A stretch of 64,000 nucleotides of DNA from Desulfosediminicola ganghwensis (GTDB taxonomy: Bacteria; Desulfobacterota; Desulfobulbia; Desulfobulbales; Desulfocapsaceae). The stretch spans positions 3,185,001 through 3,249,000 of the forward strand of contig NZ_CP050699.1 in NCBI RefSeq assembly GCF_005116675.2, read 5' to 3'. Both the position numbers and the translations under genes were made by a program. Numbering within the stretch: the stretch's first letter is position 1; each line of letters opens with the position of its first letter. A model generated the notes under the pieces. That model was not told where the DNA came from. It ran no database searches and worked only from the letters and a program-made list of their open reading frames with translations. Of this stretch, positions 6,646 to 61,615 are shown piece by piece.

Positions 6646-7582
6646 CACTCCTCCATAAATCCAGATTCAGCCCTTTTCGGACTACCTTTTCAGACAACTT
6701 TTTCAGAAAAAACGAACTGGGACATACTTTTTACTACCTGTGTCGTTCGGATAACAGAAGCCTGGAATCTTTAAAGATTTCAATAACCCGTCTCCCCCCC
6801 AGCAACACCGTGTAATTTTAACCTCCTTGACCGACCAATTTGCGCAAATTAAAAAATCTCATGTATTGAATATGTTACATGAAATAATGGCTATTAAAGA
6901 TAGTCAGGAGAGGCCGGCTTTATGCTGTATGTCCCTTGTTTAACAACGTAAAATTGAAAATCATAGTAAATGAATTGATATTGTTTGTCTAGCCTTGTTT
7001 ATGGCCGTACTCCTTATTTATAAAAGAGATTTTCGACATATGTCGGTGTGGCGATGGATCACTCAGTAGATACTGATCGATTATCTCATATTGAAAATGA
7101 AATTTGGCAAATCAGGAAAGATCTGTACCCCTAAGGTGAAAAACAGGGGCGAGCTGAGTCTTTCTTTTTCAATCTGCGGATCAGTCAAGTTCAGCTTCAC
7201 AAAGTGAAGAGTTGGGGACAGGGGGGCAGGGTAAGAGCGTAACGCCAAAGAGATCTTCTCCAATAAAATAAAATAATTCAGCATATTAGACAAAACAGTT
7301 ACCAATAAGCCAGGCCTGCACCTCACGTTTTTTTCCTCACATTTTCACGCCAAAAAATTAACGGGGGAATCAGATTTTTTCTTTGAATGTATGAGCTCTG
7401 GTCCCTGATAAGGAAACCCCACGCTTCTGTCTTGACGATGGCTGGAAAAGATGGGAAAACATCACATTTTCATGAAGTGATGAAAGAAATACTGGTTATA
7501 TTTTTACTTTGTAATTAACCGCTCCGGCAAAGCTGGAGACGAAATTTGAATATTCACTGACGGTTGCCGTATATAGAATCTC
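6646..7582. other. 937-bp gap, no convincing gene
   Basis: Upstream of the chemoreceptor (left) and mutY (right), this must hold both promoters. The 81-codon frame on the minus strand at 7081-7326 has no family features or ribosome site and is not called. A perfect 14-bp palindrome (AATTTGCGCAAATT, 6837-6850) lies about 190 bp upstream of the chemoreceptor start. Confidence 0.6.
6837..6850. promoter_or_regulatory. Candidate operator palindrome upstream of chemoreceptor
   Basis: AATTTGCGCAAATT is a perfect 14-bp dyad in an AT-rich region about 190 bp before the chemoreceptor start. The symmetry and length fit a dimeric regulator site. The regulator is unknown and the palindrome could be chance. 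Confidence 0.35.
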
Positions 7583-10367: not shown

Positions 10368-10925
10368 TTACCAATACCTGATTCTGCCGGTATCAATATG
10401 GACAAAATTTGAATCAGGGTAATAACCGACCCCACCTGCCCGTAGCGAAATAGCCACATCTCTCAAATCTCTGGTTGGAAGATCGGTAAGTCGTAAATCG
10501 ATTGCCTGACCAACCAGGTGCAAACTTTTTAAGGCAACTCCGTTGCTGTTGGCTCGAAGTTGTTCATTGGTTGCTCCTGAGCGATATCCACCGATTACTT
10601 CGTAGGTTCCGTTACTCCCGGTTTTTTCCTGGATATTGGCAAGAACTTTCATGAGTCGGAAATCTATCGGATGCACTTCACCGGTGCGAAAATCACGCAG
10701 GAAGCTGTCGAGATCCTGTTTACGATCTTCCTGGGCGTCGAGAAAAGGGTCTGAGAGCTCGAATTTTTCTCTGGTATGTATATGATAAAATTTAAGTTTA
10801 TGAGAAGGGACCGGCACTGCATGCAGATTGAGAGGCCTCGCAAGTCCGGCACATAGGGTAAGTTTCGCAGCTGTGGCAATGAACCTGCGCCTGCACAGCT
10901 GCGCATCGGGTTGTGGTGGTATCAT
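10368..10925 (-). CDS. MepK-like murein endopeptidase (DUF882 / peptidase M15 family)
   Basis: A 185-residue exported protein. The N-terminus carries a twin-arginine-like signal (CRRRFIATAAKLTLCAG). The mature part has the DUF882 zinc-peptidase pattern: YEVIGGYRS, then SLHLVGQAIDL giving a His and an Asp ligand, and FVHIDTG giving the last His. E. coli MepK (YcbK) of this family cleaves 3-3 crosslinks made by L,D-transpeptidases. Here the gene follows an LdtD (YcbB)-type gene by 38 bp on the same strand, the order also found in E. coli, which supports a paired role in making and cutting such crosslinks. Confidence 0.85.
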   Translation of the reverse strand: MIPPQPDAQLCRRRFIATAAKLTLCAGLARPLNLHAVPVPSHKLKFYHIHTREKFELSDPFLDAQEDRKQDLDSFLRDFRTGEVHPIDFRLMKVLANIQEKTGSNGTYEVIGGYRSGATNEQLRANSNGVALKSLHLVGQAIDLRLTDLPTRDLRDVAISLRAGGVGYYPDSNFVHIDTGRIRYW

Positions 10926-10963
10926 CTGGTGTTGAATATGGTAAAAAACGTGATAATGTAGAA

Positions 10964-12655
10964 CTAAAACAGCGCTTTAGCGAGTTTTTTGTCGCGAGAA
11001 TAAACGTCTACATTAAAATGGATTGTCCCATCTTTGTCAACCCAGCTTGTTTGATACGTGATGTGTACGGGGATAGGTCTGGATAGCTGAATAACCTTAC
11101 GGGAATTGCTGTCATAGGCGGTATCGATTCTCTCGGTATTCCAGTCACCATGTTGATCTTCCAGGAGAAAATAGGCAAGGGCCCGGGGGTCGCTCACGCG
11201 GATACAACCATGGCTGAAATCTCTGTTCGTGTAGTTAAACAGTTGCGGAGATGAGGTGTCGTGCAGGTAGACATCATACCGGTTTGGAAAGAGAAACTTG
11301 ATTCTTCCCAGAGGATTTTTGGGACCGGGGTCCTGGCGTAGCCTGTAACCTGCCATCTGGCCGGGGCTTACCGAATTCCAGTCAATCGAAGTTGAGTCCA
11401 GTTCCCTGGCGTTACCATTCCAACTGGAGTAGAGGCGAATATTTCGCTGTTTGAGAGAACCAGGGTCTTTCCTCAGCTTTGGCAGTTCCTCATTCTTGGC
11501 AATACTGGTTGGAATGGTCCAGTAGGGGTTAATATCAATCTGTCGGATAATATTACTGAAAACCGGGGTCTGGTGTCGCTCTTTTCCAACGACCACCCGA
11601 ATATCCAGAGCCTGTTCCTGGCCCATGTCACGATATGCTTTTAAATTATAACCGGCAATATTCACCAATACATATTTTGAGCCGAGATCGTGCGATTGCC
11701 AGCGCCAGCGAGCGAGGTTGATTCGTATGGTTTTGATACGTTCATCAACGGTGACATTAAGCGCGCCTCTGGTATTGATGCCGATAACCCCGTCTGGTTT
11801 AAGACCGTTCCGGAGTTGAAATTTAATCACAGCGTCTCTCAGCTCCAGATCATAACGGTACGGGTCGGGTGGGTTGGATTCTTGAGAAAGTTCACCTGTC
11901 ATTTTAAGGCGTTCACGCACAATCGCAACACGTGTGTCTCTATTACCCGGAAAAATTTTTAATCCTTCAGGCAGGTATGGCCACCCACCCTGAAGGGCAA
12001 TGATACGATACTTCTCAAGGGCGTTCTTCAGGCTGGTGTAATGAACATGCTGCGGAGGAAGTTGTTCGAGATAGTCTTTGATATTATTAGCAAATCGTAC
12101 CTGTTGAATGGCGAAAACCGGATTGAAATCACGATACCCAGCTTCAGGAAAGAGTTGAGGATTGGTGACACTGGGGCTGAGCTGACCGTAACTTATGTCG
12201 TGTATATAATGAACAAGATTGTAGGTGAGGAGAGTGTCGAGCTTTGCCAGGTCAGTGGCATTTTTTGAATTCCATAACTGCCTGATTTCACCTACCTGGT
12301 AAATCAGGGGGTTGAGGCCGTGTTTTTCGGAGTCCTGAAGATATTCAAAAATTATCCTGGCTTTGTACGATGGTCCTTTTGAGCTGACCCAAAGGGGGGT
12401 GGAGTCATACTTTGTATAAATTATGGCCAGACAAATGTCTTTAGAGGCCAGTAATGGCGTGTTATTTTCGAGCTGTACCAGGTCTATAGGCTGGCATCCG
12501 AGATGTTTTTGCAGTTCTAAAGCTATCTGTTGTTCAGACGCAGCGGAGTGGCTGACTGCCGGCGAGACTAGAAGACATAACAGAGAGATACTGAGGAGGG
12601 TTTGCGTGAACCAGCAAAGAGTTGTGAATTTGCTTTTGAGTCCTGAAATACTCAT
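10964..12655 (-). CDS. L,D-transpeptidase, LdtD/YcbB type
   Basis: A 563-residue periplasmic enzyme that forms 3-3 crosslinks in peptidoglycan or attaches proteins to it. There is an N-terminal signal/anchor (residues about 12-35), a scaffold region, a peptidoglycan-binding fold (around KFQLRNGLKPDGVIG), and a YkuD catalytic domain with the active-site motif SHGCIRVSDP; the nucleophile is this Cys, with an upstream His in YLHDTSSP. Length and order match YcbB-type enzymes. It heads a probable operon with the mepK-like gene. Confidence 0.9.
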   Translation of the reverse strand: MSISGLKSKFTTLCWFTQTLLSISLLCLLVSPAVSHSAASEQQIALELQKHLGCQPIDLVQLENNTPLLASKDICLAIIYTKYDSTPLWVSSKGPSYKARIIFEYLQDSEKHGLNPLIYQVGEIRQLWNSKNATDLAKLDTLLTYNLVHYIHDISYGQLSPSVTNPQLFPEAGYRDFNPVFAIQQVRFANNIKDYLEQLPPQHVHYTSLKNALEKYRIIALQGGWPYLPEGLKIFPGNRDTRVAIVRERLKMTGELSQESNPPDPYRYDLELRDAVIKFQLRNGLKPDGVIGINTRGALNVTVDERIKTIRINLARWRWQSHDLGSKYVLVNIAGYNLKAYRDMGQEQALDIRVVVGKERHQTPVFSNIIRQIDINPYWTIPTSIAKNEELPKLRKDPGSLKQRNIRLYSSWNGNARELDSTSIDWNSVSPGQMAGYRLRQDPGPKNPLGRIKFLFPNRYDVYLHDTSSPQLFNYTNRDFSHGCIRVSDPRALAYFLLEDQHGDWNTERIDTAYDSNSRKVIQLSRPIPVHITYQTSWVDKDGTIHFNVDVYSRDKKLAKALF

Positions 12656-12878
12656 AGGATCCTGCTTGCTTTAAATTGCATTTGGTAAGAACTGCTGACT
12701 GGAGCAATCCTGACTGGGAAGAAGACTTTTCTCGTACGAATATATTAATTATGCAATTTCACTGTGGGCATTACAAATACAGATTAAACATAAACTCTGC
12801 TAAATGTAATAGTTGCAGGTTGAAAAAAAATATCTGATTGTTCTATGGAGATAATTTGTACTACGGATGAGGAGAATT

Positions 12879-12902
12879 GCGCCCTGATGCGGGGCAGGGC
12901 GC
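12879..12902 (-). terminator. GC-rich hairpin after the DAP-decarboxylase-like gene
   Basis: GCGCCCTG and CAGGGCGC pair across an 8-nt loop, just downstream of the stop on the minus strand. A second 9-bp hairpin (12908-12929) overlaps the stop codon. The T-run is weak, so termination is probable rather than certain. Confidence 0.5.
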
Positions 12903-12923
12903 TGTAACTATAAGCCGAGTGGC

Positions 12924-14183
12924 TTATAGGGAAAGGCTGTCGGTGGTGAAGTCGAGGGTCGCAAAGTAGTCTTCAGGCCGTTCTTCGCGACGGATAAGTT
13001 CGGCAGTCCCTTTGACTGTCAACATGAGCTCTTTCGGGCGGAGTTTACCATTATAATTGAAGCCCATGGCATGGCCGTGTGCACCAGTGTCGTGGATGAT
13101 CAGAATATCGCCGTCCTGGATAGCAGGGAGTTTTCTCTGAATTGCGAACTTGTCGTTGTTTTCACATAAGGAGCCGACCACATCCACGGTTTCCATCTCA
13201 CAACTCTCATCCTTGCCAAGAACATCAATATGGTGATATGCGCCATAGAGTGCAGGTCGCATCAGGGCGCTCATGCAGGTATCAACTCCGATATAGGTGT
13301 GATAGATATCTTTGCGGTTGATTGCCCGAACCACCAGTACCCCGTGGGGGCCGGTCATAAAACGACCGCTTTCCATACATAGCGCCGGCATATAGCCATT
13401 CTTGTTTTTGAAATCCTGGAATACCGTCGTAATCTCACGACCCATGCCATCCAGATCAAATTTGTCCTGGTCTGGGCGGTAGGGGATTCCCAAGCCACCA
13501 CCAATATTGATGAACTCAAAAGTGATGCCAAGTTCGGCAGAAATGTCTTCAACCAACTCCAGAAGCATTTCAGCAGTTTGAACCATATAGGAATAGTTCA
13601 ACTCATTGGAAGCGAGCATGGTGTGAAGACCAAAGCGTGTTGCACCCCGGGCCATGGCCTGCCTGTAGGCATCGATAATCTGGTCGTGGCTGACACCATA
13701 TTTTGCTTCGGTCGGATTGCCTATTATATCGTTGCCGGTTCTGCGAGTGCCTGGATTATACCTGAAGCAGATCAACTCAGGCATGCTCGGCACCTTATCG
13801 ACCAGAGAAATATCATCGAGGTTGAGAATACAGCCGCCTTCCTGCTCTGCGAGCAGAAACTCTTCCTGGCTGGTATTATTTGAGGTAAACATGATATCCG
13901 CCCCCTTGGCACCAAGTTGACGGCTCAGCATTAATTCAGTGGTTGAGGAACAATCAAAACCAAAGCCCTCATCCTGCATAATTTTGAGAATGGAGGGGTT
14001 GGGCAGGGCTTTTACTGCGTAATATTGACGAAACTCATCGATTCCTGCGAAGGCCCGTTTCAGGTCGGCGCAGGTTTCACGAATTCCCTGTTCATCGTAG
14101 ATATGAAACGGTGTGCCGAAATGGTCGCAGATGTTTTCCAATACCGGAAACAGCCTGCTCTTAAAAGATGTGGATATTGGCAT
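12924..14183 (-). CDS. PLP-dependent decarboxylase, diaminopimelate decarboxylase-like
   Basis: A fold-III PLP enzyme of 419 residues. The Schiff-base Lys is in YYAVKALPNP (K53 region); the glycine-rich phosphate loop is NIGGGLGIPY, and GSLCENNDKF holds the substrate-contacting Cys. The family's usual HIGSQ segment is replaced by LHTMLASNE, and the EPGR motif reads ESGR. It therefore belongs to a divergent LysA-like branch; lysine biosynthesis, or decarboxylation of a related D-amino acid or diamine precursor, is possible. It is preceded by an Lrp/AsnC regulator gene 43 bp upstream on the same strand, which points to amino-acid-responsive control. Confidence 0.78.
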   Translation of the reverse strand: MPISTSFKSRLFPVLENICDHFGTPFHIYDEQGIRETCADLKRAFAGIDEFRQYYAVKALPNPSILKIMQDEGFGFDCSSTTELMLSRQLGAKGADIMFTSNNTSQEEFLLAEQEGGCILNLDDISLVDKVPSMPELICFRYNPGTRRTGNDIIGNPTEAKYGVSHDQIIDAYRQAMARGATRFGLHTMLASNELNYSYMVQTAEMLLELVEDISAELGITFEFINIGGGLGIPYRPDQDKFDLDGMGREITTVFQDFKNKNGYMPALCMESGRFMTGPHGVLVVRAINRKDIYHTYIGVDTCMSALMRPALYGAYHHIDVLGKDESCEMETVDVVGSLCENNDKFAIQRKLPAIQDGDILIIHDTGAHGHAMGFNYNGKLRPKELMLTVKGTAELIRREERPEDYFATLDFTTDSLSL

Positions 14184-14226
14184 GGTGCAGACTCCTGTTG
14201 AATAAACTGTGTATTGCCGAACTATG

Positions 14227-14682
14227 TTAACATATAGGGATTTTTGAAGTTTCTTTAACCGTGTGCATCACTGTGATTGTCCGTGTCGCTGCAACACCCG
14301 AAAGAGTGGTGATCCTGGTGCGGAGCAACTCACCCAATTCACGGCTATCCTTGACCCGTACCTTTACAAAGTAACCATCGTCACCGGTGGTGTAGTGCAC
14401 TTCCTGAATCTCAGGCAGCTGAGAAAGGTGTTCACCAATCAGGTCAAATTCTTCCCCGCCGCAGTTGGTTTGAATTTGAATGAAGGCGATCTGGCCCTTA
14501 TCGAACTGTTCAGGATTGAGCCGGACTTCGTAGCCATCAATTATTCCGTTCTTTTCTAATTTGCGTATTCGTTCAAGTACAGCTGATGGCGCCAGACCGA
14601 CCTGTCGGGATACTTCCACATTCGGAATACGTGCCTTCTCCTGCAGGATTTTCAGAATCTCAAGGCTCTTGTCGTCAATCAT
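14227..14682 (-). CDS. Lrp/AsnC-family transcriptional regulator
   Basis: About 151 residues. The N-terminal winged helix-turn-helix (ILKILQEKARIPNVEVSRQVGLAPSAVLERIRKLE) is typical of Lrp/AsnC, and the C-terminal RAM/AsnC ligand-binding domain carries the characteristic VHYTTGDDGYFVKVRV segment. I start at the ATG at 14682, nine bases after GGAGG; an in-frame TTG at 14691 abuts the ribosome site and is unlikely. It is probably co-transcribed with the decarboxylase gene downstream, and repeated GAGAA/TTCTC motifs upstream (14703-14775) suggest it controls its own operon. Confidence 0.93.
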   Translation of the reverse strand: MIDDKSLEILKILQEKARIPNVEVSRQVGLAPSAVLERIRKLEKNGIIDGYEVRLNPEQFDKGQIAFIQIQTNCGGEEFDLIGEHLSQLPEIQEVHYTTGDDGYFVKVRVKDSRELGELLRTRITTLSGVAATRTITVMHTVKETSKIPIC

Positions 14683-14702
14683 ATGAATCAACCTCCATTT
14701 TG

Positions 14703-14775
14703 GAGAAAAATATTCTCTAATGGCGTGTCGGTCAAGAATAAAATTCTCTATTGTGGCATGAGGTGAGAATTATTG
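14703..14775 (-). promoter_or_regulatory. Phased repeat motifs, candidate Lrp-type operator
   Basis: Two imperfect dyads (14703-14717, GAGAA-N5-TTCTC; 14735-14747, AGAAT-N3-ATTCT) and a third half-site (14765-14773) lie about 31 bp apart, three helical turns. Such phasing upstream of an Lrp-family gene is typical of cooperative binding. Confidence 0.4.
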
Positions 14776-14799
14776 TGGAGATGGATGGGGGTTAACATG

Positions 14800-14835
14800 A
14801 AAAAGGAGGCATCGAACCTGAATTCGCTGCCTCCT
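14800..14835 (-). terminator. Rho-independent terminator of octaheme cytochrome gene
   Basis: On the minus strand AGGAGGCA pairs with TGCCTCCT and is followed by five T. It lies just after the cytochrome stop. Confidence 0.8.
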
Positions 14836-14871
14836 GACGTAGAGTATGGGTGGAGTAAATGCTTGAATGGC

Positions 14872-16206
14872 TTATTTGTCTTTTTCTATAAAATATGGTG
14901 CATAGATTTTTTGCAATTCACCACTCTTGATTTTCCCTTTCAGGGTTTTGGTATCTTCGATCAACCAGGTGTGCATGGGGTCGTTTTCCAGCATGTTTTG
15001 GATATAAGCCGTGATCTCAGGGTCATTATAACGGAGTGCCTCTGGTATGAATTTAAAGTAAAAGTTGTGCGCCACGTCATAAATACCATGCCACCAGGCA
15101 TAGTCGGGACCCATCATTGCTGTACCCATTCGTGCCCGGCGCCCCTCATGATGCCACAGTTCCCAATATTCCCACTCAATATCATTGGCAAATGAGGCAG
15201 TTCTTTTCAGGACGTTTTTCTCCTGTATCATTTTCATGATTGCCCCGGCGGGCTTGGCGAATTTTTCGTTGTAGAGCATCACCAGCGCATCGTACTGATA
15301 GTAATGGCCGTCAATAAAGGTTTGCTGGTGGCAATTAAGGCAGACGTTTTCCATCGCTGTCCGACGTTCCTGCCAGTTATCGAGTTTTGTAGAGACAGGT
15401 GGTCTCAGGGTCCATGAAATTCTGTCGCCGACATCATGGGTTGCAGGTTGGCTGAAGGTTGCAGACATGTGGCAGGTTGAGCAGCTTGGTGCCTGGTAAT
15501 AATCCTGACCAACAATCCAGGTATCATTATCCAGGTTCATGGTATCTTTGAATGAATAGTAGGCGATACCATGTTTTGATTCTTCAAAAATTTCTTTTTG
15601 CGGGTGATCCGGTCCCAGATGGCATTTACCGCAGTTTTCCGGTTGGCGCGCCTGGGCAGCGGAAAAGGAGTGGCGTGAATGACAGGCGTTGCAACTTCCC
15701 TTAGAACCGTCAGGGTTGATTCTGCCAATCCCTGAATTGGGCCAGGTTAAAGGGGAGAGTTTATTGGAAAGTGATTCATCTACAATTACCTTGGCGCCAT
15801 GACATGATTCACAGCCGACAATGGCGATGGGATGACCGCCTGCAACATGCGCCAGATATGCGTCGGAAGACTCCAGTATTTCACCGGCTTTGGCGTGGTG
15901 GGATTTGGTTGCCTGCTCCATTTGCTCTTCATGACACCGGCCACAGTCATGGGGAGTGACCATCGTGGCAACAACAGCCCCGTTGTGCTCAAAACCGTCC
16001 TGGTCATCCTTTGCAGCACCATGGCAATCAAGACAACCTATGTCATTCTTGCCATGTTTTGAATTGAGCCATTGTTGGTAAAGACCGGGGTTGTCTTTTG
16101 CATGGCAGCTTACACAGTCTGTCTCCTCCTGCGCAAAGCCCAGTGAAACAAAACCAAAACACAGTGCAGCGGCTGTAACGAAACAGGTGTTAATCAGCTT
16201 TCTCAT
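14872..16206 (-). CDS. Octaheme cytochrome c of the hydroxylamine oxidoreductase (HAO) family
   Basis: A 444-residue exported protein with a signal peptide (residues 1-25) and eight CxxCH haem sites: CVSCH, CLDCH, CGRCH, CESCH, CNACH, CGKCH, CSTCH and CLNCH. Spacing, and the C-terminal helical segment with MMGPDYAWWHGIYD, match HAO-like octaheme cytochromes. In nitrifiers these oxidise hydroxylamine; in anaerobic proteobacteria relatives are thought to work in the reductive direction on nitrite or hydroxylamine. I cannot tell from sequence alone whether a Tyr crosslinks the catalytic haem. It stands alone with its own terminator; no quinol dehydrogenase partner is adjacent. Confidence 0.88.
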   Translation of the reverse strand: MRKLINTCFVTAAALCFGFVSLGFAQEETDCVSCHAKDNPGLYQQWLNSKHGKNDIGCLDCHGAAKDDQDGFEHNGAVVATMVTPHDCGRCHEEQMEQATKSHHAKAGEILESSDAYLAHVAGGHPIAIVGCESCHGAKVIVDESLSNKLSPLTWPNSGIGRINPDGSKGSCNACHSRHSFSAAQARQPENCGKCHLGPDHPQKEIFEESKHGIAYYSFKDTMNLDNDTWIVGQDYYQAPSCSTCHMSATFSQPATHDVGDRISWTLRPPVSTKLDNWQERRTAMENVCLNCHQQTFIDGHYYQYDALVMLYNEKFAKPAGAIMKMIQEKNVLKRTASFANDIEWEYWELWHHEGRRARMGTAMMGPDYAWWHGIYDVAHNFYFKFIPEALRYNDPEITAYIQNMLENDPMHTWLIEDTKTLKGKIKSGELQKIYAPYFIEKDK

Positions 16207-16468
16207 CTATACCTCCATCAAATTTATGGATTAAAGTAAAATGGAGCGGGCATGGTCGAAAGAGAACCTGGAATGCGTTGCAGGCATTGCTGAAATTTCT
16301 GGATAAATTGAGGTATGTATCCTGACTCTATTGACTGCATTGTGTAAATTGTAAATGAATTGATGAGGTGATACCAGCATAAAGCAGTATCGCGAACCAC
16401 GGCTGTAACATGAGTATGGTGTGGGTTCAGTACAACAGAAGAACCGGGAAAAGGGGGGCAACGACATA

Positions 16469-17332
16469 ATGAAATGTGTATTTTTGGGACTGACTACCCT
16501 TGATATAATTCATTACCTGAAAAGATATCCATCCAGTAACGAAAAGGTACGGGCGGATACCCAACTCTTTTTTGCCGGCGGGCCTGCTGCAAACGCAGCG
16601 GTGACCTGCTCATCTTTAGGTGCTGAGGCAATACTCGTTACCGGACTGGGACAACAGCCGCTAGCAGGTCTGGCCCGTCAGGACTTAGAGGACCATGGGG
16701 TTGAAGTTATCGACCACACCGCGAGGCCGGAAGATTTGCCGATAGTCTCCTCGATTATAGTTGATGAATCGAACGGTGATCGCTGTGTTGTCTATACCCG
16801 CCCCGACTCGAGCCGGTTGCTCGCTAACCAGGACTATTCGCAACTGCTGGCGGGTGCGGATCTGTTGATGCTCGACGGGCATTATCATGAAGCTGCTCTG
16901 GCCTGTGTTCGACGAGCGAAATCCCTTGGTCTGAAAACGGTCCTGGATGGTGGTAGCTGGAAAGAAGGACTGCGTGATATCCTGCCGTATATCGATTATG
17001 CCATCTGCTCGGGTGATTTTTATCCTCCAGGCTGTGGCGACACTGAGTCAGTGGTTGCCTATCTGAAATGTATTGGTATACCCAATATTGCTGTCTCAGG
17101 CGGAGATGCTGCCATTAAGGTATGGCAGGAGAAGTATATGGAGATAGCGATTATTGAAACAGAGGTCGTTGATACTCTAGGCGCAGGAGATATACTTCAC
17201 GGGGCATTTTGCCATTACCTTGGTGATGGTGATTTCTACCAGGCTCTGGCCAGTGCATCCAGGGTAGCGACGCTCTCCTGCAGGTACCGTGGAACACGCC
17301 AATGGATTCATGAAAAGGGGAAACTCGATTGA
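16469..17332 (+). CDS. PfkB-family carbohydrate/nucleoside kinase
   Basis: A ribokinase-like sugar kinase. It has the N-terminal GGPAANAA motif and the C-terminal DTLGAGD signature with the catalytic Asp. The start at 16469 follows an AGGGGGG ribosome site by nine bases; the longer frame from 16421 lacks one. The substrate cannot be deduced. It is followed after 139 bp by a metallo-hydrolase on the same strand. Confidence 0.88.
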   Translation: MKCVFLGLTTLDIIHYLKRYPSSNEKVRADTQLFFAGGPAANAAVTCSSLGAEAILVTGLGQQPLAGLARQDLEDHGVEVIDHTARPEDLPIVSSIIVDESNGDRCVVYTRPDSSRLLANQDYSQLLAGADLLMLDGHYHEAALACVRRAKSLGLKTVLDGGSWKEGLRDILPYIDYAICSGDFYPPGCGDTESVVAYLKCIGIPNIAVSGGDAAIKVWQEKYMEIAIIETEVVDTLGAGDILHGAFCHYLGDGDFYQALASASRVATLSCRYRGTRQWIHEKGKLD

Positions 17333-17471
17333 TTACCGGTCAAAAAAATTTCTTGAGGGAAAATTGAGTGGCTGTATGATGATAGCGTGTCGTGCTCCAC
17401 ATCGGGCTTTGTCTGCGACCAGACAATGACTGAGAGAGCTGTCAGTAATTACGAATGAACGAGGATGAGAG

Positions 17472-18179
17472 ATGACCTATTCGATAACCCCTCTGTTGAC
17501 AGGTGTGCGTAATCCTGATCAGGGAATCATGACCTACCAGCAAGGGTATGGAAAGCGTATATGGTTGCCCATATGGGCATTTCTGGTGCAGGGCAATGGA
17601 CATAATATTCTGGTGGATACAGGTCTGGATGAAAACGAACTCTTCCCTCCGGCAGGTTTTACTGAAGAAACCGGCCTGACACCTGAAACGCTCGCCGACT
17701 GTCTTAAAGCCGAGGGATTGTCTGTTGATGATATTGACATAGTCATCAATACTCATCTTCACGATGACCACTGCGGCAATAATGCACTCTTTACCAAAGC
17801 GACGTTCTACGCTCATCCGGACGAGGTTGCGTTTTGTAAATCTCCCCATCCACTCGACCATCGTTACGATGAATACTTTATTGAAAATACAGAATTTCAG
17901 GATGCGGTGGATGGGCAGGAGATCGTCCCGGGAATTACTGTGATATTCTCACCGGGTCACACTGTCGGCTGTCTTTCAGTCCGCATCTCTACTGCGGTTG
18001 GTGATGCTGTGATAACGGGATTTTGCTGTAATAACCAAAACTTTCCTGATAATGGTCCGGCAGTATGCCCTGGTGTACACCTCAATGCGGTGGAAGCCTG
18101 GGATTCTATTCAGAGAATTAAGGCGATAGCGGCAACCATTCTACCGATGCATGAGCTAAGCCTGAAAAAGATATCCTGA
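17472..18179 (+). CDS. Metallo-beta-lactamase-fold hydrolase (lactonase-like)
   Basis: A 235-residue zinc hydrolase. It has the HxHxDH motif in THLHDDHCG, a downstream SPGHTVG His, and an overall layout like AttM/AiiA N-acyl-homoserine lactonases and related cyclic-ester hydrolases. The segment after GDAVIT reads GFCCNNQ, where the family usually places a metal-bridging Asp, so the second metal site may be altered. The substrate is unknown. Adjacency to a PfkB kinase hints at sugar lactone metabolism. Confidence 0.8.
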   Translation: MTYSITPLLTGVRNPDQGIMTYQQGYGKRIWLPIWAFLVQGNGHNILVDTGLDENELFPPAGFTEETGLTPETLADCLKAEGLSVDDIDIVINTHLHDDHCGNNALFTKATFYAHPDEVAFCKSPHPLDHRYDEYFIENTEFQDAVDGQEIVPGITVIFSPGHTVGCLSVRISTAVGDAVITGFCCNNQNFPDNGPAVCPGVHLNAVEAWDSIQRIKAIAATILPMHELSLKKIS

Positions 18180-24532: not shown

Positions 24533-25072
24533 ATGCGCAATCGCTTATGGAACATCTTAATAGCAGGAATATCTTTCGCTGTCATTTTTGCCTCGCAAGC
24601 TGTAGCTGCAGAATACGATCACACTGTTGAGGCAAAAAACATATCCTTTTCATGGAAAATTGATGGTGACAATCTTGCCGGGCAGGTCAGTGCCAAGACT
24701 GAAGGCTGGGTCGGGGTAGGGTTCAATCCTTCAGCTAAAATGAAAGATGCCAATTACGTTATTGGTTACGTCAAAGCTGGTAAGGTAAAAATTGTCGATG
24801 AGTTCGGAGTTACCGCCACAGGCCACAAGGCAGATGACAAGGTGGGTGGCACCGAAAACGTAACGGTAGTCGGCGGTACTGAGGAAGGAGGCATCACCAC
24901 CATCGAGTTCGTCATCCCCCTGAACTCAGGTGACGAGAAAGATGGGGTTATAGATCCTAATGCAGATACCGTGCTACTTCTGGCTTACGGCGGAGGACGC
25001 GATAGCTTCAGGGCCAAGCATAAGTATCGCGAAGTTATGACCGTTAACCTCGGTAGCGGTGAGATGAAGTAG
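24533..25072 (+). CDS. Exported DOMON-domain protein
   Basis: About 179 residues with a signal peptide (core IAGISFAVIFAS, cleavage near AVAA) and a DOMON fold: FSWKIDGDNLAG, then GWVGVGFNP and a C-terminal LLLAYGGGRD. DOMON domains bind haem b or sugars. Candidate haem ligands are His in TGHK and AKHK and Met in AKMK. The start follows GGAGG. It is the first gene of the oxidase operon, separated from the SCO gene by 19 bp, so it may be a periplasmic redox partner or sensor for the oxidase. Confidence 0.82.
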   Translation: MRNRLWNILIAGISFAVIFASQAVAAEYDHTVEAKNISFSWKIDGDNLAGQVSAKTEGWVGVGFNPSAKMKDANYVIGYVKAGKVKIVDEFGVTATGHKADDKVGGTENVTVVGGTEEGGITTIEFVIPLNSGDEKDGVIDPNADTVLLLAYGGGRDSFRAKHKYREVMTVNLGSGEMK

Positions 25073-25091
25073 TCTTTCGATACTTCATGCC

Positions 25092-25910
25092 ATGGTCCGT
25101 TCAGGCGTAGTATACCTTGCTGTTATCCTGCAGCTGCTGTCGCTGCCGTTTGTAGCGGGAGCGACAGCAGAGCAGGATGAAGTCGGCGAACTTCCCCGTG
25201 ACATCAATCGTGAATGGGTTACGGAAAAGCGTGGAGAATACATTCCGCTCGATGCAAGATTTTTAGATGAACACGGCAGGGAAATAACTCTGGGAGAAAT
25301 TATAGATCGGCCAACACTCATTCTGCCGATTTACTTTTACTGCCCGAGTTCCTGCAGCGTAAACCTAGCCAATATGGCTGTGGCCATGAATCGCCTGAGT
25401 TTTGATCCCGGTGATGACTATAAAGCTATAGCACTCAGCTTCAGCCATACTGAAACACCAGAGATAGCGTCGCAGGCGAAGCGGAATTACCTCAAGCTGA
25501 CTTTTGATGGTTTTCCGGAAAATGAGTGGTTGTTTCTTACCAGCTCAGCAGAAGAGATCAAACGTGTTACAGATTCGCTGGGATTCAGGTTCAAGCGCAT
25601 AGATGATGAAACCTTTGTGCATCCATCGGCAATGATTGCTGTGGCAGCGGACGGTAAAATTATCCGTTATGTATATGGTTCATTTATTTCGGGCGACATA
25701 GATATGGCAATATCAAGTGCCCGGGAGGGTATTCCCATCCTCTCTGTACGTCGGTTTCTGGAATTTTGTTTTAATTATGACACCAGCGGCAAGAGAGCGA
25801 TTTATCAGAACGTGAAAGTGGCGGTATTGATATTTTTTACGGTAGTTCTCGTAGGCGTTTCCATATATTACCGCAAAAAACGAAGGCGCGGCGGAGGACG
25901 GACGAGGTAA
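25092..25910 (+). CDS. SCO1/SenC-type copper chaperone
   Basis: A 272-residue thioredoxin-fold protein with a signal peptide, the Cu-binding CPSSC motif and the later His (FVHPSA). A C-terminal membrane helix (VKVAVLIFFTVVLVGVSIYY) is followed by a basic tail. SCO proteins deliver copper to the CuA site of subunit II. It sits between the DOMON gene and subunit I, consistent with oxidase assembly. Confidence 0.93.
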   Translation: MVRSGVVYLAVILQLLSLPFVAGATAEQDEVGELPRDINREWVTEKRGEYIPLDARFLDEHGREITLGEIIDRPTLILPIYFYCPSSCSVNLANMAVAMNRLSFDPGDDYKAIALSFSHTETPEIASQAKRNYLKLTFDGFPENEWLFLTSSAEEIKRVTDSLGFRFKRIDDETFVHPSAMIAVAADGKIIRYVYGSFISGDIDMAISSAREGIPILSVRRFLEFCFNYDTSGKRAIYQNVKVAVLIFFTVVLVGVSIYYRKKRRRGGGRTR

Positions 25911-25946
25911 ACGGTATTCCCTGAACTGCAACCTGGGTGTGTAACC

Positions 25947-27596
25947 ATGACTCAAGCAGCATCATTTTTCGAAACCCCCTCACCATCTCATCTTACCGGC
26001 ATCAAAGCCTGGCTTCTGACCCACGACCATAAAAGGTTAGGGCTGATGTATATGTGGGCGGTGCTGTTCTGGTTCTCATTGGCCATGATTGTCGGGCTGT
26101 TGATACGGACAGAATTGATGTCTCAGGGGAAAACCCTGATGGATGCGGATATGTATAATGCCATGTTTACCCTGCATGGTGTCATTATGATTTTTCTCTT
26201 TATCATTCCGGCAATTCCTGCGATCTTTGGTAATTTCTTTCTGCCAATCCAGATCGGAACAGACGATGTGTTTTTTCCCAGGCTCAACCTCTTCTCCTGG
26301 TATCTGTATATGTTTGGCGGAGTGCTGGCGGTATTGTCGCTCTTTACCGGGCAGGGGTTTGCCGATACCGGCTGGACCTTCTACGTACCATTCAGCGTAT
26401 CTACTGAGCGAAACGTCACACTTACGGTGAGCGCTGCCTTTATTCTCGGCATGTCTTCCATGCTCACCGGTCTGAACTTCGTAACAACCGTGCACCGAAT
26501 GCGGGATAAGGCCATGGGCTGGATGCAGATTCCGCTCTTTACCTGGTCGCTGTATGCCACAGCCTGGGTTCAGATCCTGGCTACGCCGGTGATCTCAATT
26601 ACCCTGGTGCTGGTAGTAATAGAGCGACTCCTCGGTGTAGGATTATTTGAGCCGGATAAGGGTGGAGACCCTATCCTATATCAGCATCTGTTCTGGATGT
26701 ATTCCCACCCTGCGGTCTATATCATGATTCTGCCGGGTATGGGAGTGATCTCGGAGATAATCCCGGTTTTTTCACGAAAGGCGATATTTGGTTATAAGGC
26801 GATTGCCGGTTCTTCTATGGCGATTGCCATTGCGGGTTCATTGGTTTGGGCCCACCATATGTATACCAGCGGCATGAGTGATGTCTCAGTCTTTGTCTTT
26901 TCCCTACTCACGTTCCTGGTGGCAGTTCCCTCGGCGGTTAAAGTGTTTTCCTGGGTATCCACCATGTATAAGGGGGCGATTGAGATGAGTCCGCCGCTGT
27001 TGATGTCGCTGATGTTTATTTATCTCTTCAGTGTGGGCGGACTGACCGGGTTGGTGCTTGGTGCCGCCGGCCCGGACATCCATGTCCATGATACCTATTT
27101 CGTGGTGGCTCATTTTCATTTTGTGATGTTTGGCGGAACCGGATTCGCCTTTTTTGCAGCACTGCATTACTGGTGGCCAAAGATGTTCGGCATTATGTAT
27201 GACTTTAGAAAAGCGTATATCGGCATGACCTTTGCTTGTGTAGGTTTCATGTTCCACTATATGCCCATGTTGGTTCTTGGGTTGCAGGGAATGCCGCGCC
27301 GCTACTATGACTATCTGCCTCAATATGAGGGTGGAAATTTTGTGGCGGGTATCGGTGGCTATGTGATGGTATTCGGTTTTGCCCTCATGCTCTATAACCT
27401 GATAATCAGTTTTAGAAAGCGGGTTCCTGCGCCGGCAGACCCGTGGGGTGGCCCAACCCTCGAATGGTCGGTACCATCACCACCACCATTGTTAAATTTT
27501 GTCGATAAACCGAGGGTCAAGTCCTACCCGTACGATTTTAGTGAGATCCTTAAGCGGGAAGAGAACGCACCTGAACCTGAAAGCGCAGCAGATTAA
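25947..27596 (+). CDS. ctaD: Cytochrome c oxidase subunit I (haem-copper oxygen reductase, A2-like)
   Basis: A 549-residue, roughly 12-helix catalytic subunit. Haem a ligand His77 is in TLHGV. CuB ligands are His254 in YSHPAVYI with Tyr258, and His303-His304 in WAHHMYTSG. Haem a3/a ligands are His389 and His391 in VAHFHFV. The YSHP motif in place of GHPE marks the A2 subfamily, in which the D-channel Glu is replaced by Tyr-Ser. GTDDVFFPRLN provides the D-channel entrance Asp. Downstream by 17 bp lies subunit III. Confidence 0.97.
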   Translation: MTQAASFFETPSPSHLTGIKAWLLTHDHKRLGLMYMWAVLFWFSLAMIVGLLIRTELMSQGKTLMDADMYNAMFTLHGVIMIFLFIIPAIPAIFGNFFLPIQIGTDDVFFPRLNLFSWYLYMFGGVLAVLSLFTGQGFADTGWTFYVPFSVSTERNVTLTVSAAFILGMSSMLTGLNFVTTVHRMRDKAMGWMQIPLFTWSLYATAWVQILATPVISITLVLVVIERLLGVGLFEPDKGGDPILYQHLFWMYSHPAVYIMILPGMGVISEIIPVFSRKAIFGYKAIAGSSMAIAIAGSLVWAHHMYTSGMSDVSVFVFSLLTFLVAVPSAVKVFSWVSTMYKGAIEMSPPLLMSLMFIYLFSVGGLTGLVLGAAGPDIHVHDTYFVVAHFHFVMFGGTGFAFFAALHYWWPKMFGIMYDFRKAYIGMTFACVGFMFHYMPMLVLGLQGMPRRYYDYLPQYEGGNFVAGIGGYVMVFGFALMLYNLIISFRKRVPAPADPWGGPTLEWSVPSPPPLLNFVDKPRVKSYPYDFSEILKREENAPEPESAAD

Positions 27597-27613
27597 AAAA
27601 ACAAGGAGAGTTC

Positions 27614-28210
27614 ATGTCAACCAGATACGATACTACTGGAATCAAGGTGGGCATGTGGATCTTTCTCTACTCTGAGATCATCCTTTTCGGTGGTTTGTTT
27701 GTGCTCTACGCAGTCTACTTTTACCGTTATCCGGAATTTTTCGTGGAAGGTGGGAAGGAATTGAATCGTTTCTTTGGTTCTGCCAATACTATCGTCCTGC
27801 TGATTTCAAGTTTTACGGTGGCGTCATCCATAACCGCTCTGCAGCTTGGTAGAAAAAAACTCACCATTGGCCTGCTTTCCTTTTCTCTTATTTGCGGGTT
27901 CATCTTTCTTGTGAACAAGTATTTTGAATGGGGCGCCAAATTCCACCATGGAATTTACCCGAATTCAGAAAAGTTGGTGGAAGGGGAGCCGGGAATAAAT
28001 ATTTTCTTCGGACTCTATTACGTAATAACCGGCCTGCATGGACTGCATGTGATAATCGGTATGGTGCTGCTTGCCATTAGTCTGGTAATGGTTGCAAAAG
28101 ATATCATTACCCCCCAGCGAATAGCCATGCTCGATAACTCTGGTCTGTACTGGCATCTTGTCGATCTGATCTGGATTTTCGTTTTCCCGCTGTTTTATCT
28201 GGTGCTATGA
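27614..28210 (+). CDS. ctaE: Cytochrome c oxidase subunit III
   Basis: A 198-residue membrane protein with about five helices. Family features are GMWIFLYSEIILFGG, NTIVLLISSFTVA and GLHGLHVIIG near the end with YWHLVDLIWIFVF. It follows subunit I with AAGGAG ahead of the start, and precedes subunit IV. The five-helix length is typical of A2/caa3-like oxidases. Confidence 0.95.
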   Translation: MSTRYDTTGIKVGMWIFLYSEIILFGGLFVLYAVYFYRYPEFFVEGGKELNRFFGSANTIVLLISSFTVASSITALQLGRKKLTIGLLSFSLICGFIFLVNKYFEWGAKFHHGIYPNSEKLVEGEPGINIFFGLYYVITGLHGLHVIIGMVLLAISLVMVAKDIITPQRIAMLDNSGLYWHLVDLIWIFVFPLFYLVL

Positions 28211-28237
28211 CGGGAGGCAACGATATGGAGGAGTGTA

Positions 28238-28528
28238 ATGGGTGAGCATGGAACACACCATATTCTGAGTTATGGCAAGCTGGCCGCTGTTCTAGGTTGC
28301 CTGTTGATGCTCACTGTGGTGACCATTGGGGTTTCGTACGTTGATCTCGGTTTTTTTAACGTGCCTGTGGCAATTGGCATTGCCTCCACCAAGGCAACTC
28401 TGGTGCTGCTCTTTTTCATGCACCTCAAATATGAAGGGCCGCTCATAGTCTGGTCTTTCATCAGCGCGGTCATTTTTTTAGCCATAATGATAACGTTCAC
28501 TTTTTGGGATGTGGCGTTCAGATATTAA
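28238..28528 (+). CDS. ctaF: Cytochrome c oxidase subunit IV, bacterial type
   Basis: A 96-residue protein with three hydrophobic segments. The KATLVLLFFMHLKYEGP motif is characteristic of the small bacterial subunit IV. It sits between subunits III and II, with GGAGG ahead of its start. Confidence 0.9.
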   Translation: MGEHGTHHILSYGKLAAVLGCLLMLTVVTIGVSYVDLGFFNVPVAIGIASTKATLVLLFFMHLKYEGPLIVWSFISAVIFLAIMITFTFWDVAFRY

Positions 28529-28540
28529 GTGGAGACCATT

Positions 28541-29137
28541 ATGATTCCGGGAAAAGGTGTTGACCAGGCACTCTGGTACATCCTTGGTATTTCAGCAGTC
28601 CTGCTGGTGGGTATAACCGCGACGATGATCTACTTCGTTATCCGTTATCGGCGGAGTAAGCATCCGGTTCCGCATGATATACGAGACAACGTACCTTTGG
28701 AAATTGCATGGACTGTGATCCCAACCTTTATTGCCCTCTCAATGTTCTACATAGGCTGGCAATCCTACATTGGGTTGCGCACTGTTCCAGAGAACGCAAT
28801 AGAAATAGAAGTGCTAGGGCAACAATATTCCTGGATTTTTATATATGATAATGACAAAGAAACGGAAAACACCCTGGTGGTCCCCCTGGGGCAACCCATT
28901 AAGTTGAATATAACTTCAATAGATGTTCTCCATAGTTTTTATATCCCGGCATTTCGTGTCAAGGTGGATGCCGTAAAGGGCATGGAGAACTATGTCTGGT
29001 TTAATGCGGATGTGCTTGGAGAGTATGATATCCTTTGTACTGAATATTGTGGCACGGAACATTCGGCCATGGTGGCAAAGTTGAGGATAGTTCCCGAAGA
29101 AGAGTATCTGGTTTGGCTGGAAAGTGAGGATGAATGA
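28541..29137 (+). CDS. ctaC: Cytochrome c oxidase subunit II
   Basis: About 198 residues. Two membrane helices (about residues 12-35 and 55-75) are followed by the periplasmic cupredoxin domain carrying the CuA site: His in VLHSFYIP, then CTEYCGTEHSAM with two Cys, His and Met. There is no C-terminal cytochrome c domain, so electrons come from a separate donor. The ATG at 28541 has GGAG six bases ahead, better than the in-frame GTG at 28529. It is placed last among the subunits, after I, III and IV, which is unusual for the common II-I order. Confidence 0.95.
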   Translation: MIPGKGVDQALWYILGISAVLLVGITATMIYFVIRYRRSKHPVPHDIRDNVPLEIAWTVIPTFIALSMFYIGWQSYIGLRTVPENAIEIEVLGQQYSWIFIYDNDKETENTLVVPLGQPIKLNITSIDVLHSFYIPAFRVKVDAVKGMENYVWFNADVLGEYDILCTEYCGTEHSAMVAKLRIVPEEEYLVWLESEDE

Positions 29138-30026
29138 GATCAGAAATGATTCCAACTGCTCTACATTTCACGTAGATCTTCTGCATACAGTTTCTGCAGT
29201 CAGGCGACTTGCTAAAGTACCGCTTTGTTTATTGATCGCTTGTTCGACAGCATTTGGTGCCAGCCTGGCACCAGGTTCCAGTCTCTCAAGTGGATGGGCA
29301 GTGTCGGTAGGTGTGTTTCTGTTGGCAATGGGGGCTGCGACGCTGAATTCGCTGCAGGAGGTGGCTTCAGACAGTCTGATGCAGCGAACCAGGAACAGGC
29401 CACTGGTGCGGGGGGAGTTGTCTGTTAAATTTGCCGCTCTGCAAACAGCACTCCTTATTTGCAGCGGAATGGCAATTCTGCAACTGGCAAGTATCTCCGG
29501 AGTATCACCTGGCCTCGGTTTTGTGGCATTATTCCTCTATAACGGCTTTTATACTCCGCTCAAAAAGGTAACCCTTTATGCTCTGGTTCCGGGCGCAATC
29601 TGTGGAGCGATACCTCCCCTGATCGGTCTCGCGGCCATGGGGGGAGAGCTGCTGTCACATCAGGCATTATTACTTTTCGCTTTACTCATCTTGTGGCAGA
29701 TTCCACATTTTTTTCTGGTGCAGCTGCAACACAAGCACGATTATCTGACCTCGGTACAGCCCAGTTTTCTGCAAAAATTTTCAGAGACTGGATTACGAAA
29801 ACTGGCAGTCGTCTGGATCAGTTCGCTCGGCTTTGTCATGCTGTTATTCACCATTTCTCCAATGGTAGAAAGTTTCAGGCAATGTGGCCTGATTGGCCTA
29901 AATGCAGCGATTTTTACTTTCATGATTTCTCGCCAATTACTTTTGCAAAAGAGCAGGAACTATAAAATGCTCTTCATCTCCATGAACACCATGTTGGTTT
30001 TTCACATGTTGATTCTTTCGTTTTGA
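29130..30026 (+). CDS. ctaB: Protohaem IX farnesyltransferase (haem O synthase)
   Basis: A UbiA-family membrane prenyltransferase of about 298 residues with around eight helices. The first Asp-rich motif appears as NSLQEVASDSLMQRTRNRPL, with Glu where the first Asp is usual. It makes haem O for the aa3 oxidase. It overlaps the end of ctaC by 8 bp, so is translationally coupled. No CtaA (haem A synthase) gene is in the window, so whether the oxidase carries haem O or A is open. Confidence 0.9.
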   Translation: MNEIRNDSNCSTFHVDLLHTVSAVRRLAKVPLCLLIACSTAFGASLAPGSSLSSGWAVSVGVFLLAMGAATLNSLQEVASDSLMQRTRNRPLVRGELSVKFAALQTALLICSGMAILQLASISGVSPGLGFVALFLYNGFYTPLKKVTLYALVPGAICGAIPPLIGLAAMGGELLSHQALLLFALLILWQIPHFFLVQLQHKHDYLTSVQPSFLQKFSETGLRKLAVVWISSLGFVMLLFTISPMVESFRQCGLIGLNAAIFTFMISRQLLLQKSRNYKMLFISMNTMLVFHMLILSF

Positions 30027-30410
30027 CCACTATTCTTTTGTTATTATATCTGGATCTCAGCTGCACGGAGTGAGGTATAACGACCAAGGTTGTAGAGGTA
30101 ACAGCGTGTGGATTAAAGGCTTTTCTTCACCAGCAGATAAGCATACTGATCCCAGGGTGGGGCACCAGCCAATCAGTTACATCTCACCTCTCTTGTCTAT
30201 CTCCTCATTTTTCCATGTCGCAGGTTAATGGTGCTCTGATTCCTTTTTATCCCCGGGTTGCTGTTCGATAAGAATATGCAGGCTAAGGACAGAAAAGCTT
30301 TGCAATAATGATTACTAATATTATCATGATTGGAAGTCAACAGGGGGGATCAGGCACGGAGTGATAAAATCGCCCCTAACTCAGAATTATAGAAATTTAT
30401 GGATTGATGC
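30027..30410. other. Intergenic region after the oxidase operon
   Basis: No gene. At 30309-30331 there is an AT-rich element containing ATTATC and GATTAC hexamers, a weak match to a Fur-like site, about 80 bp before the 47-aa gene. Confidence 0.4.
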
Positions 30411-30554
30411 ATGCCGAAATCTAAATGCTGCTTGAAATACAGGAAAAAAGGGAAGAAGTGTAAGGGGTGTCCAATAATCGCACTTGAGGATATATTTGGC
30501 AAAAAAGGCAAGAAATCCTTGAAAAAGAAGGACAAAAAAAAGAAAGATAATTAG
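30411..30554 (+). CDS. Small Cys/Lys-rich protein (47 aa)
   Basis: A short frame below usual gene-calling size: ATG at 30411 to TAG at 30552. The N-terminal half holds four Cys in the pattern CC-x8-10-C-x2-CP embedded in Lys/Arg; the tail is nearly all Lys and Asp. I recall similar tiny CCxKYxKKGxxCxxCP proteins in deltaproteobacterial genomes, but cannot verify that here. Four Cys could bind Zn or Fe, and the charge suggests contact with nucleic acid or membrane. It lies between the oxidase operon and ferritin. The ribosome site is weak. Confidence 0.5.
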   Translation: MPKSKCCLKYRKKGKKCKGCPIIALEDIFGKKGKKSLKKKDKKKKDN

Positions 30555-30587
30555 TGATACACCTGACATTACACTTCGTGTGTATCA
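30555..30587. promoter_or_regulatory. Inverted repeat upstream of ferritin
   Basis: TGATACAC (30555-30562) is complementary to GTGTATCA (30580-30587), with an inner ACAC-TTC-GTGT hairpin. About 50 bp before the ferritin start, it could be an operator or a leader hairpin. Confidence 0.4.
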
Positions 30588-30638
30588 AATGAACTGAAAT
30601 ATTAAAAAACCCGTAACCCCGAGCAGGAGGATTATTGC

Positions 30639-31148
30639 ATGATTTCCCAGAATATGGCCGACGCCCTGAACGAACAGATTAACGCAGAACTTTTTTCCTC
30701 ATATCTTTATCTTTCCATGGCCGCATGGTTTGCCAAAACCGGATTACCTGGCTTTGCCAACTGGATGCGGGGCCAGGCAAAGGAGGAAAACTTCCACGCT
30801 GAGAAGATGTTTGATTATCTACTGGAGCGGGGAGGTGAGATTGAGTTGAAGGTGATCGATAAGCCACAGACAAATTGGGAGTCTCCCCTCGATGCTTTTC
30901 AGGCGGTTGCCGACCATGAGGCCAAAGTCACTGGTCTGATAAACGATCTGATAAATACAGCTCTTGATGAGCGTGATCATGCATCCAATATCTTCCTGCA
31001 ATGGTTTGTCTCTGAGCAGGTGGAAGAAGAGGCGAGTGTTGGTGAGGTCCTTGATCGTCTGAAACTGGTTGGTACTGATACCGCAGGTATGTTTGCCATG
31101 GATATGGAAATGGCTAAGAGAGTTTTTACCGAACCTGCAGGTATCTAG
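30639..31148 (+). CDS. ftnA: Ferritin (iron storage)
   Basis: A 169-residue four-helix ferritin. Di-iron ferroxidase ligands are visible: Glu in NEQINAELFSSYLYLSMAAWF, Glu-x2-His in AKEENFHAEKMF, and Glu/Gln in the third and fourth helices (SEQVEEEASV). It stores iron as ferric mineral and limits Fenton chemistry. The start follows GCAGGAGG. A near-perfect hairpin follows the stop. The selenoprotein gene is about 115 bp downstream on the same strand. Confidence 0.96.
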   Translation: MISQNMADALNEQINAELFSSYLYLSMAAWFAKTGLPGFANWMRGQAKEENFHAEKMFDYLLERGGEIELKVIDKPQTNWESPLDAFQAVADHEAKVTGLINDLINTALDERDHASNIFLQWFVSEQVEEEASVGEVLDRLKLVGTDTAGMFAMDMEMAKRVFTEPAGI

Positions 31149-31185
31149 TGTAGATATCCGATTTCAATTAAACTCCTGTACAATC

Positions 31186-31235
31186 GAGTCGCCTTCTGTT
31201 GCCATGAAGTTGTGCCGGCACGAAGGCGGCTCTTT
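31186..31235 (+). terminator. Probable hairpin between ferritin and selenoprotein genes
   Basis: GAGTCGCCTTC (31186-31196) pairs with GAAGGCGGCTC (31222-31232), one G-U, followed by three T. The T-run is short, so read-through into the next gene is likely. Confidence 0.45.
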
Positions 31236-31264
31236 GGATACCCCACAGAACAAGGGCAGAAAAT

Positions 31265-31606
31265 ATGAAAATTGATTGGGCATACTTACGAAAAGGCTGA
31301 GTATCCTGCAAAAAAGCCGGGACGGTTTTTTCAGAAAGTGGTTTGGAGATTAACGAAGAAGTCAATGCCGCCAAAAGTACCATATCCGGTGACGATGTCT
31401 GGGGCCTGGTTGAAGGGGCTGAGAAAGTTGTGGTTACAAGTGGCAAGAAAATTCTGGAATATAACCCGAAAACTGATGACAAGGAGGAGATTGTTGCAAA
31501 GATATCAGGTAGAACAGGCAATTTGCGAGCACCTGCACTGAGAATCGGCAACTCTTATTATATCGGTTTCAATGAAGATCTCTATGATCAGATCGGCAAG
31601 ATGTGA
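31265..31606 (+). CDS. ArsC/Spx-like thioredoxin-fold selenoprotein with in-frame UGA
   Basis: From ATG 31265 the frame reads MKIDWAYLRKG, then TGA at 31298-31300, then VSCKKAG and on without interruption to a TGA stop at 31604. The total is 113 residues if the first UGA is selenocysteine (residue 12). This creates a U-x-x-C redox motif at the exact place of the CxxC in ArsC/Spx-like small thioredoxin-fold proteins. The remainder shows that family's SGRTGNLRAPALRIGN and the terminal YYIGFNEDLYDQ. Just after the UGA a bulged hairpin can form (31310-31331, 3-nt GGA loop), fitting a bacterial SECIS. Standard callers would start only at TTG 31343 and lose the active site. A strong terminator follows. 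Substrate unknown; a peroxide, arsenate or disulphide role is possible. Confidence 0.8.
31310..31331 (+). promoter_or_regulatory. Candidate bacterial SECIS hairpin
   Basis: A stem of six A-T pairs, one bulged G, then CCG/CGG closing a GGA loop. It starts ten bases after the in-frame UGA and has G residues in the apical loop, as SelB-recognised elements do. It overlaps coding sequence. Confidence 0.5.
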
Positions 31607-31637: not shown

Positions 31638-31680
31638 CCAAAGCCCCTTCAGAATTTTTCCTGAAGGGGCTTTGGTGTTT
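31638..31680 (+). terminator. Strong rho-independent terminator
   Basis: A perfect 15-bp stem (31638-31652 with 31661-31675) and an 8-nt loop followed by TGTTT. It ends the selenoprotein transcript. Confidence 0.88.
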
Positions 31681-31861: not shown

Positions 31862-32023
31862 TTAACCGTCGTATTTCCAGAAAGAGTCTTTCTCTGCACC
31901 GCAAACCGGGCAGACCCAGTCTTCAGGGAGATCTTCCCATGCGGTATCTGGCTCTACGCCATTTTCGTAATCACCTTCTGCCGGATCGTACACATAACCA
32001 CAAGGACATTCCCATTTTTGCAT
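31862..32023 (-). CDS. rub: Rubredoxin
   Basis: A 53-residue protein too short for usual size cut-offs. It has the two iron-binding pairs CPCGY (C-x-C variant: [10 protein letters not shown]) and CPVCG, the conserved DPAEGD, and the aromatic core W-Y-F. The first pair reads C-P-C-G rather than the usual C-x-x-C-G, so the spacing of the first ligand pair is one residue short: an oddity worth checking. Rubredoxins pass electrons to superoxide reductase and to oxygen-reducing partners. The start follows GGAGG. Expression is from a consensus promoter with a Fur box. Confidence 0.93.
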
Positions 32024-32073: not shown

Positions 32074-32101
32074 ATTATATCCTATTAATTTTCACTGTCA
32101 A
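32074..32101 (-). promoter_or_regulatory. Consensus sigma-70 promoter of rubredoxin
   Basis: TTGACA (32096-32101) and TATAAT (32074-32079) are separated by 16 bp, both perfect matches to consensus. Confidence 0.8.
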
Positions 32102-61271: not shown

Positions 61272-61516
61272 AGTGTTTCAAGTAGTATAGTTGATTTTGG
61301 GAGTATCTCATAGCTGTCGCAATTCATTGCGTAGCTGATGTGAAGATAATATGTAGTCACAAGTTATGCAAATTCCAGACCGATTTATTGGCTGCAGGTA
61401 ACTGCTTCAGTCAGTTTACTCTCTGAATACGTTGAGGTATTCAATTTTATGTTGCCGGCTTAATCTGCATGACATACCATTAATCGTACGGTCAATCATT
61501 GTAAGTACAAGTTGAT
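61272..61516. other. Spacer before the TPP riboswitch
   Basis: No gene. The thiB promoter should lie here, ahead of the riboswitch. Nothing clear was seen. Confidence 0.4.
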
Positions 61517-61605
61517 ACGCGGGAGCTTGGAATAACCAGGCTGAGAGGGGTCTGAAAGGGCCCGACCGCTTAACCTGATCCGGATAATGCCGGCGGAGGG
61601 AAAAG
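61517..61605 (+). promoter_or_regulatory. TPP (thi-box) riboswitch
   Basis: The core motifs are present in order: CTGAGA at 61541, ACCTGATCCGGATAATGCCGG (61573-61593) and the closing GGAGGGA. It precedes a thiamine-binding protein gene, with an intrinsic terminator directly after, so binding of thiamine pyrophosphate would stop transcription. Confidence 0.95.
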
Positions 61606-61615
61606 TGTGGCTTTC

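Follow-up and report, generated by a model that had tools for sequence, protein, structure and literature searches.

ArsC-like selenoproteins have been reported before from Deltaproteobacteria (PMC1794560). The 2008 GOS survey listed a selenoprotein as "Arsenate reductase 2, UxxC" (PMC2398784), and the family has been tabulated as an "arsenate reductase-like protein" with a UxxC motif (PMC13188914). Its curated profile, NF041106 (ArsC_rel_Se_1, "ArsC family (seleno)protein"), has a cut-off of 85 bits, and we found no report on the biochemistry of the NF041106 family. For Desulfosediminicola ganghwensis IMCC35004, one report counts 45 selenoprotein genes, of which 40 were known and 5 were new (PMC12013277).

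We analyzed a stretch of 64,000 nucleotides from the D. ganghwensis contig NZ_CP050699.1, here called the window, for which a preliminary description had proposed a selenocysteine (Sec)-encoding UGA in an ArsC/Spx-like protein. The predicted product matched NF041106 over the whole profile (positions 1 to 107 of 107) with 116.1 bits and an E value of 1.1e-33, and all 74 aligned homologs matched the same profile. With the same full-length alignment, a score above the cut-off, Sec at the same place, and a UxxC motif, nothing essential sets this protein apart from the described family. Because the NF041106 cut-off is exceeded and the UxxC family is already listed, the gene is real but not new, and it represents no discovery; the additions of the present analysis are the covariation of the SECIS hairpin and the wider gene neighborhood. 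The features of the locus are collected in Table 1.

Table 1. Features of the selenoprotein locus (positions are those of the window)
Feature	Position	Strand	Evidence
Cytochrome c oxidase subunits I, III, IV, II	25947..29137	+	Pfam COX1, COX3, COX4_pro, COX2
UbiA-family prenyltransferase	29124..30026	+	Pfam UbiA, 3.4e-34
Ferritin	30639..31148	+	Pfam PF00210, 1.6e-45; 116 nt upstream of the selenoprotein gene
Selenoprotein gene, ArsC/Spx-related (NF041106)	31265..31606	+	translation with TGA as U; NF041106 match; AlphaFold fold
UGA codon, predicted Sec, residue 12	31298..31300	+	TGA position shared by 38/38 homologs
Bacterial SECIS hairpin	31306..31334	+	fold; covariation in 19 homologs
Very stable hairpin, putative terminator	31638..31675	+	−33.2 kcal/mol, z −7.2
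Rubredoxin, convergent	31862..32023	−	Pfam Rubredoxin, 8.3e-21

An in-frame UGA is conserved at codon 12

The reading frame opens with the ATG at 31265, ends with the TGA at 31604-31606, and holds 113 sense codons with one internal TGA at codon 12. Its predicted product of 113 residues, including Sec, begins MKIDWAYLRKG-U-VSCKKAG and carries the UxxC motif as U12-V-S-C15, which reproduced both the coordinates and the motif of the continuous frame proposed earlier. The conventional open reading frame at the locus has a TTG start, spans 31343-31606, and encodes 87 amino acids that lack the active site, just as had been described for ordinary gene calling.

We scanned genome contigs for the gene, which yielded 38 relatives, and then read each copy in frame. 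The TGA was found at residue 12 in all 38, although its presence was no selection criterion, and apart from a few short or broken copies the protein was conserved on both sides of it. Two further surveys, which drew on partly overlapping genome sets, covered 58 relatives and 395 genomes of the phylum; every NF041106 match above the cut-off had exactly one in-frame TGA (37/37 and 28/28, respectively), and no member above the cut-off had Cys in its place. The two relatives inspected below the cut-off also had UGA at the Sec position, within a UTTC motif. The second active-site position, C15, is Cys in 72 of the 74 aligned family members and Ser in the other 2. The preliminary description had named homologs without Cys or Sec at the active site as evidence against its proposal; in all three samples UGA occupied that place.

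A scan of the window for other read-through frames yielded no convincing second selenoprotein, and no plasmid homolog of the selenoprotein gene was found. We also considered TGA as a sense codon throughout the genome and rejected this, because the same gene stops at TGA and the neighboring genes read normally. The UGA at residue 12 is very probably read as selenocysteine.

A SECIS hairpin follows the UGA

The main stem of the hairpin starts ten bases past the UGA and pairs 31311-31319 with 31323-31331 around the apical loop GGA (31320-31322); an outer CUG/CAG pairing (31306-31308 with 31332-31334) lies across a 2-nt bulge. The bulged hairpin with a G in its apical loop was thus found where the preliminary description had placed it. 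Folding the sequence after the UGA did return this hairpin, at −9.4 kcal/mol, but by itself it did not rise above chance; with a z score of −0.11 and 84 of 200 shuffles as good, the single-sequence hairpin is no evidence. No SECIS match was obtained from Rfam.

Comparison among homologs was more informative. Relative to codon-shuffled versions, the 45 nt from the UGA had a mean z score of −0.88 in 82 homologs, versus −0.22 for a control segment in a later part of the gene, a difference that is descriptive only because the sequences are related. In the 19 homologs that share the register of the window, the 7-pair core stem was 92.5% paired, a value inflated by the partial choice of these homologs by register, which affects double changes less readily. 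For the core stem, double-change cells numbered 13, against a mean of 3.2 in shuffles, and the covariation score was 0.386 (shuffled, 0.204); neither value was reached in any of 500 shuffles, and slid controls fell far below the covariation of the real register. Double changes occurred at columns 15-33, 18-30, and 21-27, each of which pairs a third codon position with a third codon position. Since relatives carry these paired third-position changes and no shuffle reaches the covariation score, we conclude from comparative sequence evidence that the hairpin is a genuine bacterial SECIS, and it offers a clean comparative example of one in which synonymous sites change in pairs. Among 27 sequences of another lineage, the hairpin is displaced by four bases in the 3′ direction and has its own covariation (0/500 shuffles for the score), and the element therefore appears to have slid in evolution while its G-bearing loop was kept.

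That the gene is instead broken or misread in sequencing, with the TGA a plain nonsense mutation and the product no more than a short fragment, might draw on the downstream start of the 87-amino-acid frame and on the chance-level hairpin, yet this reading has next to no probability and is refuted because the UGA and the 11 codons before it are conserved, alongside the flanking conservation in 38 unbiased homologs, the SECIS covariation, and the match to a curated selenoprotein family. We consider it almost certain that the locus encodes a selenoprotein of the NF041106 family, with Sec predicted to be inserted at residue 12. The case also illustrates that a true recoded UGA can be recognized by a reader without tools.

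The genome encodes selenocysteine machinery

A search for selB, selC, and selD, which the preliminary description had proposed as a check, found all three in the genome: selB (384.7 bits), a tRNA-Sec with a UCA anticodon (75.4 bits), and two copies of selD, both of which contain an in-frame UGA themselves (L055:1381-2529 and L056:1402-2463). The absence of selB or selC, named there as counterevidence, was not observed.

No match for selA was obtained in the readable sequence with TIGR00474, PF03841, or the SelA of a congener, and SepSecS was likewise not found in the genome. In congeners, selA lies between a 16S rRNA gene and a conserved neighbor; in this genome that neighbor is broken off by a block of 7,500 N, which occupies the syntenic place of selA. 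The same neighbors run into N in two other genomes (G003 and G008), with blocks of 5 to 7.5 kb across the three. Blocks of 5,000 to 7,500 N, probably over rRNA genes, cover this place (L107 at about 10530-18030, L108, and L109). The lack of a selA match counts against the selenoprotein reading, but because the syntenic place falls in an N block, the missing selA is best explained by N masking, and we set aside the idea of a selenoprotein-rich genome without a Sec synthase. Such N blocks give false absences in whole-genome searches.

The predicted fold resembles Spx and ArsC

The AlphaFold model (pLDDT, 93.9) has a thioredoxin-like Spx/ArsC fold. Spx was the best match both by PDB profile (E = 2.8e-5) and by Foldseek (E = 2.3e-4), the latter with a TM score of about 0.5 that denotes modest similarity to solved structures. 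Besides the fold, the protein shares with Spx (1z3e, 3l78, 3ihq) a C/UxxC motif at the N terminus of helix 1, the LRxP loop, and a GFN/GYN segment. It differs in that Sec replaces the first Cys, identity is about 20%, and the Spx cut-offs are not reached (TIGR01617, 23.4 bits versus 75.05; others lower); the protein is known here from its sequence and predicted fold. Invariant residues of the family include W5, Y7, R9, G11, U12, G85, L87, R88, P90, G101, and Y107.

Pfam ArsC gave a weak match below its cut-off (E = 0.0077). The catalytic arginine triad of Escherichia coli ArsC consists of Arg60, Arg94, and Arg106/107 (PMC3169414). Only the Arg94-like R88 in the LRxP loop is kept, and it is invariant; the region of Arg60 reads K/S/R-G. 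The protein therefore has the fold of ArsC and YffB (1rw1, 2kok) and one conserved arginine in common with them, but it carries an incomplete triad and a UxxC motif where those proteins have a single catalytic Cys.

The gene lies among genes for oxygen and oxidant handling

The order in the window is a SCO1-like gene, cox I, III, IV, and II, a ctaB-like gene, ferritin, the selenoprotein gene, the downstream hairpin, rubredoxin on the minus strand, and a gene for an FAD protein. The UbiA-family gene is probably CtaB (heme O synthase), as it is placed after cox. In this anaerobic sulfate reducer the SCO1-like, four-subunit cox, and ctaB-like genes directly precede ferritin and the selenoprotein gene over 25041-31606, an order that recurs in relatives, where cox homologs also lie upstream of the selenoprotein gene.

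Context was counted over 82 loci, many of them with short flanks. The ferritin arrangement occurred in 9/82 loci, all of the lineage nearest the window, a ctaB-like gene upstream in 12/82, convergent rubredoxin downstream in 15/82, and peroxiredoxin in 6/82. A rhodanese-rubrerythrin fusion gene comes after the selenoprotein gene in 8/82 loci, which belong to other lineages. Its frame lies directly downstream and overlaps the selenoprotein stop codon in L070, L071, L074, L080, L089, L093, and L133. Ferritin does stand directly before the gene on the same strand, as had been described, but the iron-storage context proposed on this basis proved too narrow, since ferritin is confined to a minority of loci within a broader cox/ctaB/ferritin/peroxiredoxin/rubredoxin block. 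As judged from the annotated genes, the context is one of oxygen and oxidant handling, with ferritin as one of its components, and not all members of the family share it.

The strong terminator proposed after the gene held up in part: the hairpin there is very stable, but a terminator scan had no match at this place and no clear U-tract follows it on the plus strand, so its role as a strong terminator is plausible only. Elsewhere in the window we noted a perfect sigma-70 consensus promoter (12/12) at 32074-32101, which lies upstream of the rubredoxin gene and like it on the minus strand, and a TPP riboswitch at 61509-61618 (RF00059, 61.2 bits).

Proposed function

The SECIS hairpin past the UGA would be bound by SelB carrying Sec-tRNA, which would insert Sec at residue 12. 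In the resulting thioredoxin-fold product, Sec12 and Cys15 may form a selenenylsulfide, and such a redox center would be the simplest mechanism. Substrates would most likely be disulfides or oxidized thiols, or peroxide-derived species, reduced during oxidative stress. We regard a selenenylsulfide/thiol oxidoreductase in oxidative-stress defense as the probable function, if by no wide measure, its redox activity, substrate, and stress role all being predictions.

A redox-sensing transcription regulator of the Spx kind, in which a Sec12-Cys15 switch acts via RNA polymerase, would fit the best profile and Foldseek matches, which include Spx/alpha-CTD complexes, as well as the UxxC where Spx has CxxC and the oxygen-handling neighbors. 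We nevertheless hold it to be improbable, with scores below the TIGR01617 and Spx cut-offs and so low a sequence identity. Sec also serves less commonly as a mere sensor than as a catalyst.

The chance that the protein is a selenium-dependent arsenate reductase, that is, ArsC proper, is slim. The ArsC-family fold, the weak Pfam match, and the literature name "arsenate reductase-like" (PMC13188914; compare PMC2398784) speak for it. Against it, no arsenic gene was recognized among the annotated neighbors, and Spx gave the best matches in both sequence and fold. Because just one of the three catalytic ArsC arginines is retained, arsenate reduction appears unlikely.

For the favored oxidoreductase, gene context is a weak guide to function, because the neighborhood varies among lineages. 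It is conceivable, but doubtful, that the family represents a Sec-only, Spx-like redox sensor/reductase that serves anaerobic sulfate reducers specifically when they are exposed to oxygen and is inherited together with the heme-copper oxidase-ferritin-peroxiredoxin-rubredoxin block. The recurring oxygen-handling neighbors suggest a testable function for the NF041106 family.
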